From an uncultured Colwellia sp. (GTDB lineage: Bacteria; Pseudomonadota; Gammaproteobacteria; Enterobacterales; Alteromonadaceae): DNA of 64,000 nt. The notes beneath the pieces are model-generated. The model saw nothing but the letters and a program-made list of their open reading frames with translations, was not told the DNA's origin and did no database searches. This document shows, in pieces, positions 7,315-14,106 of the stretch (position 1 is its first letter; every line of letters starts with the position of its first letter). The stretch is from NCBI GenBank assembly GCA_913062815.1, contig CAJXWZ010000005.1, positions 62,001 to 126,000 of the forward strand. Reading direction: 5' to 3'. The position numbers were made by a program, and so were the translations under genes.

Positions 7315-8370
7315 ATGACCGCTAAACGTTACTTGTTTTATATTGCTCACAATTACTCTTTTGAGATCTTAAGACCTTTGCAAAAAGTAATATTAGCCCA
7401 AGGTGATAAGGTCAAATGGCTTGCCGTTGGTAAAGAAGTTACTTTAAGTTATTTTGATAGTGATGAGTCCGTCTTAAACTCTATCGATGACGCTAGGAAG
7501 TATAACCCAGATGCAAGCTTTGCCCCTGGTAATGAAATACCTAATTTTATTCCTGGACTGAAAGTGCAAGTTTTCCATGGGTTAGAATGGAAAAAGAAAG
7601 GACATTTTATTATTCGTGACTTTTTCGATTTATATTGTACTCACGGACCTGCAACCACTAGCCGATTTAATAAACTTGCAAACCAACATGGTTTTTTTGA
7701 CATTGTTGAAACGGGTTGGCCAAAACTTGATTATTTGTTTTCAACCCCAGCGATGCCACTTACCCAAGAGTTACATGCTCAAGGTAGAAAAGTTATCCTC
7801 TATGCTCCTACCTTTTCACCGGCATTAACATCTGCGCCTGCCTTATTTGAAGAAATAAAGCGTTTGAGTGAACAAAAAGATTATCATTGGTTAATAAAGT
7901 TCCATCCTAAAATGGCAACTCAATGGCTTGAAGAATATAAAAAACTAGCGGCGAATGGTATCAATGGAAACGTGCAAGTCATCGAAACATCCAGCATAAA
8001 TCAACTGTTACAATCTGCCGATATCATGGTCTCAGACACCTCTTCGGTCATCGGTGAGTTTTCTCTTCTTAACAAAGCAACTGTTAGTCTAAATAATAAA
8101 GAGCCTGGTGATTATCTGGTAAACATAAATCAAGCTGCTCAACTAGAAGGTGCAATTGAGCGGGCTTTAAATCCAAGTGCAGCATTAAAGCTAGCAATTA
8201 AGGCCTATGCTGAAGACCTTCACCCCTACAATGATGGTGATGCGGCGCAACGCATTTTATCAGCTACTGAAGCTATGCTAAGTGAAGGAATAAAAGCAAA
8301 AAAAAGCAAGCCATTAAACTTGTTCCGCAATTTAAAGCAGCGCAAAAAACTCCGCTATTGGTCCTTTTAA
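7315..8370 (+). CDS. CDP-glycerol glycerophosphotransferase family protein
   Basis: 351 residues from the ATG at 7315, chosen over an in-frame TTG at 7300 because GGAA sits just upstream of the ATG. TagB/TagF-type features are visible: QVFHGLEWKKKG, the segment around CTHGPATTSRF, ETGWPKLDYLF, KFHPK, and the C-terminal VSDTSSVIGEFSLLNK. The family transfers glycerol phosphate from CDP-glycerol to a lipid-linked glycan or polymer at the membrane. Paired with the TagD-like gene, it suggests a glycerol-phosphate-modified capsule or lipopolysaccharide. It lacks the long N-terminal extension of TagF, so it may add one or few units rather than polymerise. Confidence 0.85.
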   Translation: MTAKRYLFYIAHNYSFEILRPLQKVILAQGDKVKWLAVGKEVTLSYFDSDESVLNSIDDARKYNPDASFAPGNEIPNFIPGLKVQVFHGLEWKKKGHFIIRDFFDLYCTHGPATTSRFNKLANQHGFFDIVETGWPKLDYLFSTPAMPLTQELHAQGRKVILYAPTFSPALTSAPALFEEIKRLSEQKDYHWLIKFHPKMATQWLEEYKKLAANGINGNVQVIETSSINQLLQSADIMVSDTSSVIGEFSLLNKATVSLNNKEPGDYLVNINQAAQLEGAIERALNPSAALKLAIKAYAEDLHPYNDGDAAQRILSATEAMLSEGIKAKKSKPLNLFRNLKQRKKLRYWSF

Positions 8371-8426
8371 CTAGCCATTTACGCTCTTTATATAACTAAA
8401 GCATCTAGCGCTGGAGTTTTTTTCAT

Positions 8427-8456
8427 TTGACAAAAATTGAGTAAATGCGCTATTAA
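8427..8456 (+). promoter_or_regulatory. Candidate promoter of the leu operon
   Basis: TTGACA at 8427-8432 is followed after 18 bases by TATTAA at 8451-8456. The predicted start near 8463 gives a leader of about 85 bases before the leucine leader peptide. Spacing is slightly long, so confidence is modest. Confidence 0.45.
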
Positions 8457-8548
8457 TAGATACCTTAATAAATTTTATAGTGTTACTTATGCTGAAATAG
8501 TGCATAATTAGTTCTTTATAGTAACAAGACAACAAAAGTATCTAGAAA

Positions 8549-8611
8549 ATGAAACCAGTTAATAAGCAAATTCTCCTCGACCTCCTCCTCGTACTCAAAG
8601 TGCGCGGCTAG
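8549..8611 (+). CDS. leuL: Leucine operon leader peptide
   Basis: A 20-codon frame, ATG at 8549 to TAG at 8609-8611, encodes MKPVNKQILLDLLLVLKVRG. Six of the codons are leucine, all CTC (8573, 8576, 8582, 8585, 8588, 8594), clustered just before the end. CTC is uncommon for leucine in this AT-rich window. A terminator lies 66 bases after the stop and leuA follows. This is the arrangement of a transcription attenuator: shortage of charged leucine tRNA stalls the ribosome on the CTC run and lets the operon be read. The peptide itself need have no function. Confidence 0.92.
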   Translation: MKPVNKQILLDLLLVLKVRG

Positions 8612-8687
8612 GTTTTATGGCTTATTAAAACATTTTCAGAGACTACTCTAAAAATATAATCAGATAAGAATTCATTAAAACCCGCGC
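8602..8687 (+). promoter_or_regulatory. Predicted antiterminator pairing of the leu attenuator
   Basis: GCGCGG at 8602-8607 (the Val-Arg-Gly end of the leader peptide) is complementary to CCGCGC at 8682-8687, and GTTTTA at 8612-8617 is complementary to TAAAAC at 8676-8681. Together they form a 12-pair helix with a 4-base bulge (8608-8611) that occupies the left arm of the terminator. A ribosome reaching the stop codon would cover 8602-8611 and prevent it; a ribosome stalled on the CTC codons may leave it free. This is read from sequence only, without folding energies. Confidence 0.7.
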
Positions 8688-8706
8688 TAATTAACGCGGG
8701 TTTTTT
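8677..8706 (+). terminator. Attenuator terminator before leuA
   Basis: CCCGCG at 8681-8686 pairs with CGCGGG at 8695-8700 around an 8-base AT loop, followed at once by six T residues (8701-8706). A classic intrinsic terminator between the leader peptide and leuA. Confidence 0.88.
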
Positions 8707-8815
8707 ACGTCTAGGTGTTAATTAGCGCTTTATATTGGTAAGTATCATTGCTTACCTGCAAACAAATAAGACGGTAAATAAGGCAATAGCCTTAAAAACA
8801 TTGATAGGAATACAT

Positions 8816-10375
8816 ATGAGCACAACATTAACCTCACAAGACAATGTCATTATTTTTGACACCACCTTACGCGACGGTGAGCAAGCATTAAACGCAAGTT
8901 TATCGGTACATGAGAAATTGCAAATAGCCCAAGCACTTGAGCGTTTAGGCGTTGATATTATGGAAGTAGGTTTTCCTGTTTCTTCTCCTGGTGATTTTGA
9001 ATCAGTGCAACAAATTGCCCGCACAATTAAGAACTCTCGCGTCTGTGGCCTAGCTCGCGCGGTTGAAGGCGATATTGATGCCTGTGCTCAGTCATTGAAA
9101 GTTGCTGATCAATTTCGTATTCATACTTTTATTTCAACTTCGGATGTTCATGTTCAACAAAAACTTCGTAAAGAATTTGCTGACGTACAAGCGATGGCCG
9201 TACATGCCGTAAAGTATGCGCGTAAATTTACCGATGATGTTGAGTTTTCGTGTGAAGATGCGGGTAGAACTCCGATTGACAATTTATGCCGTATGGTTGA
9301 AGCCGCTATTGATGCTGGAGCAACTACAGTAAACATCCCTGATACCGTCGGATATACCATGCCATTTGAATTCCAAGGCATTATCACAAATTTATTCAAC
9401 CGCGTGCCTAATATAGATAAAGCTATTATTTCTGTACATTGTCATAACGATTTAGGCTTGGCTGTTGCTAATTCTATGGCAGCTGTTCAAGCAGGTGCTC
9501 GTCAAATAGAATGTACCATAAATGGTATTGGTGAGCGTGCTGGTAACTGTTCATTAGAAGAAGTTGCCATGATCATGAAAACTCGTGAAGCTTTATTAAA
9601 TGTGAATACCAATATTAATCACCAAGAAATTGCTCGCAGCTCAAAATTGGTCAGTACCTTGTGTAATATGCCAGTGCAGTTAAACAAAGCAATTGTCGGC
9701 GGCAATGCTTTTAGTCATTCATCAGGTATTCACCAAGATGGTATGTTAAAAGCGAGTAATACCTACGAAATTATGACACCCGAAAGTGTCGGTATTGCTA
9801 AAACCAAATTAAACCTAACCTCGCGTAGTGGCCGTCATGTTATTAAACATCGTATGGCCAGTTTAGGCTACCAAGAAAGTGACTATTGCCTTGAAGAGCT
9901 TTATCAAGACTTTTTGGCATTAGCCGATAAAAAAGGCCAAGTATTCGATGATGACTTAGAAGCAATGGTGTTTAATATCCAGCAACAAGATAATCAAGAT
10001 CACTATCGTTTAGATACCATTAATGTGCAATGTGGTGATGGCGAATTTGCTACCGCCAGCATTAAATTATTGGCCGGTGAACACAGCTCTAAAGTACAAG
10101 CAACAACAGGTAATGGCCCAGTCGACGCACTTTATCAAGCGATAAAACAAGCAGTAGATGTAGAATTTGAAGTAAGTGATTACAAAATATCAAACAAAGG
10201 CTCGGGTGAAGATGGCTTAGGTCAAGCCGATTTAGTCATTACTTGGCAAGATAGAAACTTCCATGGTTATGGTTTGGCCACTGATGTTATTGAAGCATCT
10301 GGTCAAGCATTGATTCATGCATTAAACAGCATCCACAGAGCCATGACGATTGCCGAGCTTAAAGCTGCAAAATAA
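8816..10375 (+). CDS. leuA: 2-isopropylmalate synthase
   Basis: 519 residues from the ATG at 8816, chosen because TAGGAA precedes it and the protein then starts like other LeuA enzymes ([20 protein letters not shown]). The frame is open further upstream to 8735, but that part lies in the leader RNA. The enzyme condenses acetyl-CoA with 2-ketoisovalerate, the first step of leucine synthesis, in the cytoplasm. DTTLRDGEQ (metal and substrate site), [14 protein letters not shown] and GIGERAGN are present in order, and the C-terminal regulatory domain (about 390-519, leucine feedback) is complete. First gene of leuABCD; controlled by the attenuator upstream. Confidence 0.98.
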
Positions 10376-10416
10376 TCGCTTTAGCAAGAAACAAATTTAA
10401 ATATATAAGGTTTTAG

Positions 10417-11508
<1,092 letters not shown>

Positions 11509-11509
11509 T

Positions 11510-12928
11510 ATGACAACTACAGCAAAAACCATGTACGAAAAATTATGGCAAAACCATTTAGTAGAAGATCTAGCTGACGAAACGCCATTATTGTTTGTCG
11601 ATAGACATTTAATTCATGAGGTGACGTCACCACAAGCCTTTGCTAATTTACGTTTTCATAACCGCCCTGTACGTCATCCTGAACGTACAATCGCGACCAT
11701 GGATCACAACATTTCAACACGTTCTATTAAAATTGATGCCGCTGGTGAAGGCGCTGCCAACCAATTACGTGCCCTTGAAAAAAACTGTAAAGATTTTGGT
11801 ATTGAGCTTTTTGGTATGGGCCATAAAAATCAAGGAATAGCTCACGTAATGGGGCCAGAGTTAGGTTTAACCTTACCCGGTACTATCATCGTTTGTGGTG
11901 ACTCTCATACTGCTACGCACGGAGCCTTTGGCTCATTAGCATTTGGTATCGGTACTTCTGAAGTAGAACATGTTTTTGCTACACAAACATTGCGTCAGAA
12001 TAAAGCTAAAACCATGAAAATTGAAGTTAAAGGTCAAGTTGGCAAAGGCATAAGCGCGAAAGATATAATTTTAGCAATTATAGGCAAAACAGGTAGTGCT
12101 GGTGCTACAGGTTATGTGGTCGAATATTGCGGTGAAGCCATTGAAGCCTTAAGCATGGAAGAGCGCATGACCGTTTGTAACATGAGCATTGAGTTTGGCG
12201 CAAAAGCAGGTCTTGTTGCTCCAGATCAAACCACCTTTGATTATGTTCAAGGCAAAGAATATGCTCCTAAGGGTGATGTTTTTGAACAAGCGGTCAATGA
12301 TTGGCAGCAACTAAAATCTGATGAAAATGCCGTATTTGATGCAGTATTAACACTTGAAGCTAAAGATATTAAAGCCCAAGTAACTTGGGGCACAACACCA
12401 GGGCAAGTGACCAGCATTGACAGTAAGGTACCCTCACCAAGTGATTTCAGCGACCCTGTTGAGCAAGAGTCTTGTAAACAGGCCCTAGAATATATGGATT
12501 TAACCGCAGGCACTAAAATTACCGATATTAGCGTAAATAAGGTATTTATTGGTTCATGTACCAATTCACGTATTGAAGATTTACGTGCTGCTGCTAATGT
12601 TGTCCAAAGCTATACTGACAAAGGTCAAAGCGTACAAAGTTCAGTTGATGCCATTATTGTACCGGGTTCATACCGTGTAAAGGCACAAGCTGAAAGTGAA
12701 GGTTTAGATAAAATATTCAGTGATGCCGGCTTTGAGTGGCGCTTACCCGGTTGTTCAATGTGTTTAGGGATGAATGATGATGTTTTAACAGCTGGCGATC
12801 GTTGTGCATCCACCAGTAACCGAAATTTTGAAGGTCGTCAAGGCCGAGGTAGTCGCACACATTTAGTAAGTCCCGAGATGGCTGCTGCCGCTGCAATTAC
12901 CGGTCACTTTGTTGATTTAAACACGTAA
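11510..12928 (+). CDS. leuC: 3-isopropylmalate dehydratase large subunit
   Basis: 472 residues from ATG at 11510, one base after the leuB stop; an in-frame start at 11450 would overlap leuB and adds residues foreign to the family. The protein begins [15 protein letters not shown] as LeuC does. Iron-sulphur ligands are seen in [11 protein letters not shown] and CSMCLGMN (the three cysteines of the aconitase-type 4Fe-4S cluster), with [12 protein letters not shown] as a substrate-site block. With LeuD it isomerises 2-isopropylmalate to 3-isopropylmalate. Confidence 0.98.
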
Positions 12929-12944
12929 CCTAACAGGAAATATC

Positions 12945-13556
12945 ATGGAAAAATTTACTACACATAGCGGCTTGGTTGCACCATTAGATATCGCAAATGT
13001 CGATACTGACCAAATCATTCCAAAGCAATTTTTACAAAAAACTGAACGCATTGGTTTTGGCAAACATTTATTTCACGATAGTCGCTACCTAGATCATAGC
13101 GGAAATGAGCCAAACCCTGACTTTATTTTAAATAAAGCAGCATACCAAGGCGCTAGTATTCTTCTTGCTAGAGAAAACTTTGGCTGTGGTTCTAGTCGTG
13201 AACATGCACCTTGGGCGTTAGAAGAATACGGCTTCAAAGTTATTATTGCACCAAGCTTTGCCGATATTTTCTATGGAAATTGTATCAATATAGGCTTATT
13301 ACCGATTAAGTTAAGAGAAGCTGAAATTGAGCAATTATTTCAATTAGCGCCAGATGCACAACTAAACCTTGAAGTTGATTTACCTAATAGCAAAGTTAGC
13401 TTTACCAACGACGCAGGTAAACAAGTAGAATTTAACTTTAGTTTAAGTAAATTCCAACAATACAGTTTAGAAAATGGTATAGATAGTGTTGGTTGGACAT
13501 TAGGCAAGCTTGATAAAATTAAAGCTTTTGAAGCTAAGATGCCTGTTTGGCAATAG
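12945..13556 (+). CDS. leuD: 3-isopropylmalate dehydratase small subunit
   Basis: 203 residues; [23 protein letters not shown] and [20 protein letters not shown] are the hallmark blocks of the LeuD swivel domain. It forms the isomerase with LeuC. AGGAA lies just upstream of the ATG and the gene follows leuC after 16 bases. It is the last gene of the operon, followed by a clear terminator. Confidence 0.98.
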
Positions 13557-13758: not shown

Positions 13759-14106
13759 ATGTATATGGCTATTCCACTTCCCGGTTCTCAGGTTAGAGGC
13801 TCTAAAACTGGCAAAGCTATTATGGCGCTACTCGACTTGTTAGGTAGAACATGGGCTCTTGGTATTATTTGGAATTTACAACAAGGCCCAGCCACTTTTC
13901 GTGAGTTGCAACAACGTTGTGAGAAAATATCACCTACCTTATTAAATAGCCGCTTAAAAGAGCTAAAAGCTTTGCAATTAGTTGATATGCAAGAGACAGG
14001 TTATCAATTAACTCAGCAGGGAGTTGAATTAATTGCCATCATATTACCACTGGGTGATTGGTCAAAACATTGGGAAAAACAAGTACTAGAGGCCCAAAAC
14101 GTATGA
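13759..14106 (+). CDS. HxlR-family winged-helix transcriptional regulator
   Basis: 115 residues. The HxlR pattern is clear: GRTWALGIIWNLQQGPATFREL (helix one and two), the recognition segment ISPTLLNSRLKELKALQLV, and the wing with YQLTQQGVEL. The signal sensed is unknown and there is no cysteine pair of the redox-sensing type. The stop codon overlaps the nudC start by ATGA at 14103-14106, so the two are translationally coupled. An alternative start two codons on (13765) is possible. The inverted repeat upstream may be its operator. Confidence 0.88.
   Translation: MYMAIPLPGSQVRGSKTGKAIMALLDLLGRTWALGIIWNLQQGPATFRELQQRCEKISPTLLNSRLKELKALQLVDMQETGYQLTQQGVELIAIILPLGDWSKHWEKQVLEAQNV

Follow-up and report, generated by a model that had tools for sequence, protein, structure and literature searches.

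Sequence comparison and RNA folding indicate that the leuABCD operon of an uncultured marine Colwellia sp. is almost certainly under the control of a ribosome-mediated transcription attenuator. The operon lies in a 64,000-nucleotide stretch of DNA (the window, meaning the whole stretch that was analyzed), spans positions 8816 to 13556, and has an NCBIfam match above cutoff for each of its four genes. Upstream of leuA are a short leader ORF with clustered leucine codons, as expected of a leuL-type attenuator, an intrinsic terminator that ends 110 bases before the gene, and an antiterminator that is predicted to be exclusive with the terminator and to be masked by a ribosome standing at the leader stop codon. 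The coordinates of all features are collected in Table 1.

Leader architecture and predicted switching

Table 1. Features of the leu leader and operon (positions in the window)
Feature	Position	Strand	Details
Possible leader promoter	8427..8456	+	TTGACA, 18-base spacer, TATTAA
Leader peptide, leuL-like	8549..8611	+	20 residues, six CTC Leu codons, stop TAG
Regulatory Leu codons	8573..8596	+	CTC at 8573, 8576, 8582, 8585, 8588, 8594
Anti-antiterminator	8579..8614	+	Leu-codon region with antiterminator 5' arm; minimum-energy fold of 8549-8640, overlapping consensus helix
Antiterminator 5' arm	8602..8617	+	GCGCGG-[CTAG bulge]-GTTTTA; overlaps last codons and stop
Antiterminator 3' arm	8676..8687	+	Overlaps terminator 5' arm
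Intrinsic terminator	8677..8706	+	Stem 8677-8686/8695-8704, loop 8687-8694, U's to 8706
leuA, 2-isopropylmalate synthase	8816..10375	+	NF002084 and TIGR00973 above cutoff
leuB	10420..11508	+	TIGR00169 above cutoff
leuC	11510..12928	+	TIGR00170 above cutoff
leuD	12945..13556	+	TIGR00171 above cutoff

The leader ORF runs from an ATG at 8549 to a TAG at 8609-8611 and encodes the peptide MKPVNKQILLDLLLVLKVRG (20 residues). An earlier reading made from the letters alone (the sequence-only reading) had proposed a 20-codon peptide with six CTC leucine codons, and the frame bears this out, with CTC at every leucine. Among 3417 short-ORF starts in the window, the leader ORF is the only one with at least three CTC codons within 8 codons. 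The conserved part of the leucine run is the triplet at 8582-8590, which overlaps the 5' arm of the anti-antiterminator. No clear Shine-Dalgarno sequence was seen by eye 5' of the leader ATG. A promoter-like pair starts 122 bases 5' of this ATG. As a raw count, TTGACA-N18-TATTAA precedes 35 of 45 Colwelliaceae-type leaders, with TATAAA in 1 more and no such pair in 9; a stricter promoter scan did not call the 8427-8456 pair. Beyond leuD, a 115-residue ORF (13759-14106) presumably resembles an HxlR-type regulator.

The antiterminator comprises 12 pairs (8602-8607 with 8682-8687 and 8612-8617 with 8676-8681) interrupted by a 4-base bulge, CTAG at 8608-8611, which loops out the stop codon. The sequence-only reading had given the same 12 pairs at the same coordinates but had not mentioned the bulge with the stop codon in it; its proposal that the stop region of the peptide is itself the antiterminator arm holds, as the 5' arm spans the last codons and the stop. 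The terminator stem consists of ten perfect pairs. Here, too, the perfect stem and the U's to 8706 were as first described, but the span then given, 8681-8706, excluded the four A's at the outer end of the 5' arm. A generic terminator scan of 8300-8830 listed 0 terminators; it missed this one because its rule needs a T run after the stem, and here four T's lie inside the stem. A third helix, between the leucine codons and the antiterminator arm, went unnamed in the sequence-only reading. This anti-antiterminator belongs to the device as its third element; a protector helix over the leucine codons is predicted for the window and for the consensus of its relatives but is too weak to keep the antiterminator from forming in 12 of 35 leaders. 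The stretch 8540-8720 as a whole folds 4.3 standard deviations better than its shuffled versions, and none of the 200 shuffles attained the native value.

Folding was modeled at successive ribosome positions, with a mask assumed to reach 13 bases past the start of the A-site codon and with the transcript ended at 8690. The probability of the antiterminator over 8603-8607 was 0.85 to 0.90 when any triplet CTC occupied the A site, 0.41 to 0.59 when either of the first two CTC codons did, 0.04 without a ribosome, and 0.0 when the A site was at the last CTC or the stop. With the last CTC (8594) in the A site, the model predicts that the GC half of the antiterminator would be blocked (0.0) while the U-rich half would still form (0.98). 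The same snapshot folding was applied to 35 leaders, with each transcript cut off shortly after the terminator 5' arm. Antiterminator probability exceeded 0.5 in 35/35 with the A site on the second triplet leucine and again in 35/35 with the A site on the third, in 0/35 with the ribosome at the stop, and in 12/35 without a ribosome, the last of which means that the anti-antiterminator is not strong in every leader.

In the equilibrium fold of the full transcript, the terminator wins under every mask tried (0.91 or more). A working switch must therefore depend on kinetics, as such attenuators usually do, with the outcome decided as the polymerase travels from about 8687 to 8704. Under a shortage of charged tRNA-Leu, the ribosome would stall on the CTC codons, open the third helix, and free 8602-8617, which would pair with 8676-8687 before 8695-8704 is made and so let the polymerase continue into leuA. 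When leucine is ample, the ribosome would reach the stop codon and cover the arm, or the third helix would re-form after release; with the arm covered or sequestered, the terminator would form, and transcription would stop near 8706.

Conservation in relatives

A LeuA search of 79 genomes, including the window's own, gave matches in 76 and none in three. Upstream loci were taken from 36 same-genus (window included), 9 same-family, and 25 same-order genomes, six genomes with a LeuA match being left out (three same-genus and three same-order: G008, G030, G035, G053, G061, and G077); loci were oriented by the LeuA motif, and a distance limit was set on peptide-terminator pairing. A script found a leucine-rich peptide with a terminator in 36/36 same-genus, 8/9 same-family, and 12/25 same-order loci. 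It found no such pair in the remaining 13 same-order loci, and in the same-family locus L035 the peptide was present with no terminator called. A second, organism-named set of 80 loci (Colwellia, Litorilituus, Cognaticolwellia, Thalassotalea, Oceanimonas, Pseudoalteromonas, and a few others), which has many genomes in common with the first, yielded the pair in 77. The best LeuA match to the window's was that of Colwellia sp. 39_35_sub15_T18 (96%), which suggests that the window comes from Colwellia or a very close neighbor. Conservation of the peptide, helix, and CTC codons in Colwellia relatives, suggested earlier as a check, was thus observed: besides the pair in every same-genus locus, the leucine codons of the triplet are CTC in 99 of 104 cases across 35 selected relatives.

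The leucine-rich ORF reads through or stops at the antiterminator arm in 36/36 same-genus loci. The peptide ends in RG followed by the stop in 33 of these; that of L019 ends in RV, and those of L004 and L006 run five codons on. In five further leaders (L078, L080, L105, L107, and L119), the peptide extends beyond the RG arm by at least five codons, like that of E. coli. Where the stop lies with respect to the arm therefore varies within the group. Two side observations concern individual loci. The leader of L011 lies about 150 bases farther from leuA than that of L015, which has nearly the same peptide, with a seeming insertion between terminator and gene. Locus L107 (NZ_JAGHQT010000002.1), recorded as Endozoicomonas sp. 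G2_1, has a leuA of the Colwelliaceae type (81% to the window's), so that the recorded organism is probably misnamed.

Pairing was evaluated in an alignment (A1) of 35 of 50 loci, 15 having been dropped because they lacked the arm letters, the stop, or the terminator letters that the selection rule demanded. Paired cells made up 94.3% of 384 in the antiterminator, versus 27 to 65% when the arms were slid by one to three columns, and 96.9% of 350 in the terminator, an invariance that is partly by construction because the rows were chosen on those letters. Changes on both sides were seen in 0/11 antiterminator pairs (outermost A-U pair left out), with no excess over row shuffles, and in 0/10 terminator pairs. 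RNAalifold, given no structure, predicted from A1 the terminator and a helix between the second and third triplet leucine codons and the GCGCGG/TAG region, i.e., the anti-antiterminator, which likewise contained no double changes. Near invariance in the 35 Colwelliaceae-type leaders thus amounts to conservation, with no compensatory change.

Between lineages, the letters of arm and terminator differ in concert: most Colwelliaceae combine CGCGG with CCGCG, four leaders with a peptide ending in HG (L054, L057, L058, and L061) combine CACGG with CCGTG, and one finds GCGGGG with CCCCGC in many Pseudoalteromonas leaders (e.g., L129 to L131). Arm-terminator duplexes were compared in 97 of 112 leaders, the 15 without a peptide/terminator pair being left out; as these leaders were not selected on arm letters, the comparison is fairer than A1. 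The native duplex beats 95% of arm shuffles in 94/97 leaders and the mean swapped terminator in 93/97 (Colwelliaceae-type, 42/45; Pseudoalteromonas, 31/31; other, 20/21), figures that rest on single-base shuffles, related sequences with at least one duplicate (L042 and L117 are the same leader), and groups of our own making, "other" being same-family and same-order genomes. Among the exceptions is L048, whose native duplex is weaker than the average obtained with swapped terminators. For Colwelliaceae-type, Pseudoalteromonas, and other leaders, respectively, mean energies were -13.8, -17.3, and -15.9 kcal/mol for native duplexes; -11.9, -13.2, and -12.3 kcal/mol with foreign terminators; and -6.1, -9.0, and -8.5 kcal/mol with shuffled arms. 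The covariation of the helix that the sequence-only reading had proposed to look for is therefore absent inside the Colwelliaceae-type leaders but appears as co-change between distant lineages. Because arm and terminator change together, the end of the peptide seems to follow the RNA, which suggests that it is shaped by RNA pairing rather than by the protein.

Alternatively, the terminator might just end a transcript that comes from upstream, or attenuate constitutively with no sensing of leucine. An intrinsic terminator 110 bases 5' of leuA works without any peptide, and equilibrium folding gives the terminator in all states. We nonetheless consider this explanation very improbable, given that a leucine-rich ORF reaches or ends at the antiterminator arm in every same-genus locus and that the arm and terminator co-change across lineages.

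Choice of the CTC codon

Within the conserved triplet, CTC occupies the first position in 33/34, the second in 31/35, and the third in 35/35 leaders; the leucine position after the triplet is CTC in 14/35. CTC accounts for 0.3% of 1330 leucine codons in the leuA genes of 34 of the 35 relatives (L118 left out), and it is the rarest leucine codon in the window, at 68 of 1749 in 45 ORFs of 150 codons or more, in agreement with the initial description of CTC as rare. The accompanying idea, that sensing is sharpened when a rare codon is clustered, was put forward long ago for leu leaders and may or may not hold here. The rare-codon explanation, of which leu was the paradigm, is deemed an oversimplification in a paper in which selective charging of isoacceptors decides and CUA is named as the best suited leu control codon in E. 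coli (PMC1183508). In our set, Pseudoalteromonas leaders use mixed leucine codons, and two Oceanimonas leaders use mostly CTA.

CTC is decoded by tRNA-Leu(GAG). The draft genome that contains the window holds three GAG, one UAA, and one CAA tRNA-Leu genes (pattern search, with ARAGORN on the first ten loci), and neither approach found a UAG tRNA-Leu in this draft, which is 94% complete. The three GAG genes (L152, L154, and L155) lie on contigs C13 and C34 of that genome. The excess of GAG and the missing UAG gene may be an effect of the draft assembly. Because of the draft's 94% completeness, three single-contig genomes of the genus were added; each has one GAG and two UAG genes and two or three UAA genes, and one has CAA, as counted with an exact pattern that could miss tRNA copies with other letters. 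Scarcity of the CTC-reading tRNA was considered as the reason for CTC and rejected, as the three GAG genes in the window's own draft speak against it. Selective charging was also tried as the reason and set aside, as tRNA gene counts, a crude proxy for supply, do not clearly single out CTC.

Another possibility is that CTC is kept mainly because the CUC letters form the 5' arm of the anti-antiterminator, and not for the quality of tRNA sensing. In the RNAalifold structure, letters of the second and third triplet codons pair with the stop region, and the third codon, the invariant one, has its wobble C opposite a G; in the window's own minimum-energy fold, position 8587, the wobble C of the second triplet codon, is paired as well. 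In the consensus fold, however, the wobble C's of the first and second triplet codons are unpaired, yet CTC predominates at both positions far beyond its frequency in leuA. Pairing as the main reason is thus, in our judgment, rather unlikely, and the anti-antiterminator explains the conservation of CTC in part; pairing and decoding may both act. A bolder reading, to which we give somewhat less than even odds, is that the Colwelliaceae sensor is tuned to one isoacceptor, tRNA-Leu(GAG), where E. coli senses through CTA, and that CTC in the triplet is under selection for decoding and RNA pairing together.

Relation to known leu attenuators

A comparison of the letters places the Colwellia leader beside E. 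coli leuL, which likewise has a run of leucine codons, GCGCGG at its ...LRG codons, and a terminator, ACCCGCGC...GCGCGGGT, before leuA. The two differ in that E. coli leuL has four CTA codons and a peptide that runs eight codons past the arm, whereas the Colwellia leader has CTC codons and a stop inside the antiterminator bulge. The Rfam model RF00512 (Leu_leader) scored 22.8 bits on the plus strand and 24.3 bits on the minus strand of the window, mostly at the terminator; with a gathering cutoff of 50, the window leader is not a member by Rfam's model. That model passed its cutoff in 2/20 chosen sources, E. coli and L059, and remained below it in 18 of the 19 sources other than E. coli.

Relatives of this leader may already be listed in the survey of proteobacterial amino acid attenuators that Vitreschak and others reportedly made in 2004. 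Shewanella belongs to the same bacterial order as the window's organism. As described in one paper, the leuA attenuator of that genus has a terminator, an antiterminator, and an anti-antiterminator formed from peptide-coding sequence and half of the antiterminator stem, and by this description it shares the three-helix layout of the Colwellia leader (PMC2659441). Searches of a literature collection with few subscription papers yielded nothing on this attenuator in Colwellia or Pseudoalteromonas, and the word Colwellia occurs 0 times in PMC2659441 and PMC2965389.

By its predicted architecture, the Colwellia leader is of the same kind as the known E. coli and Shewanella leu attenuators, and the type of device is not new. 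The finding extends a textbook switch to the Colwelliaceae, with the peptide and helices now open to annotation, and a sensor codon specific to this lineage would let the theory that selective charging determines attenuator codons be tested on a natural case.
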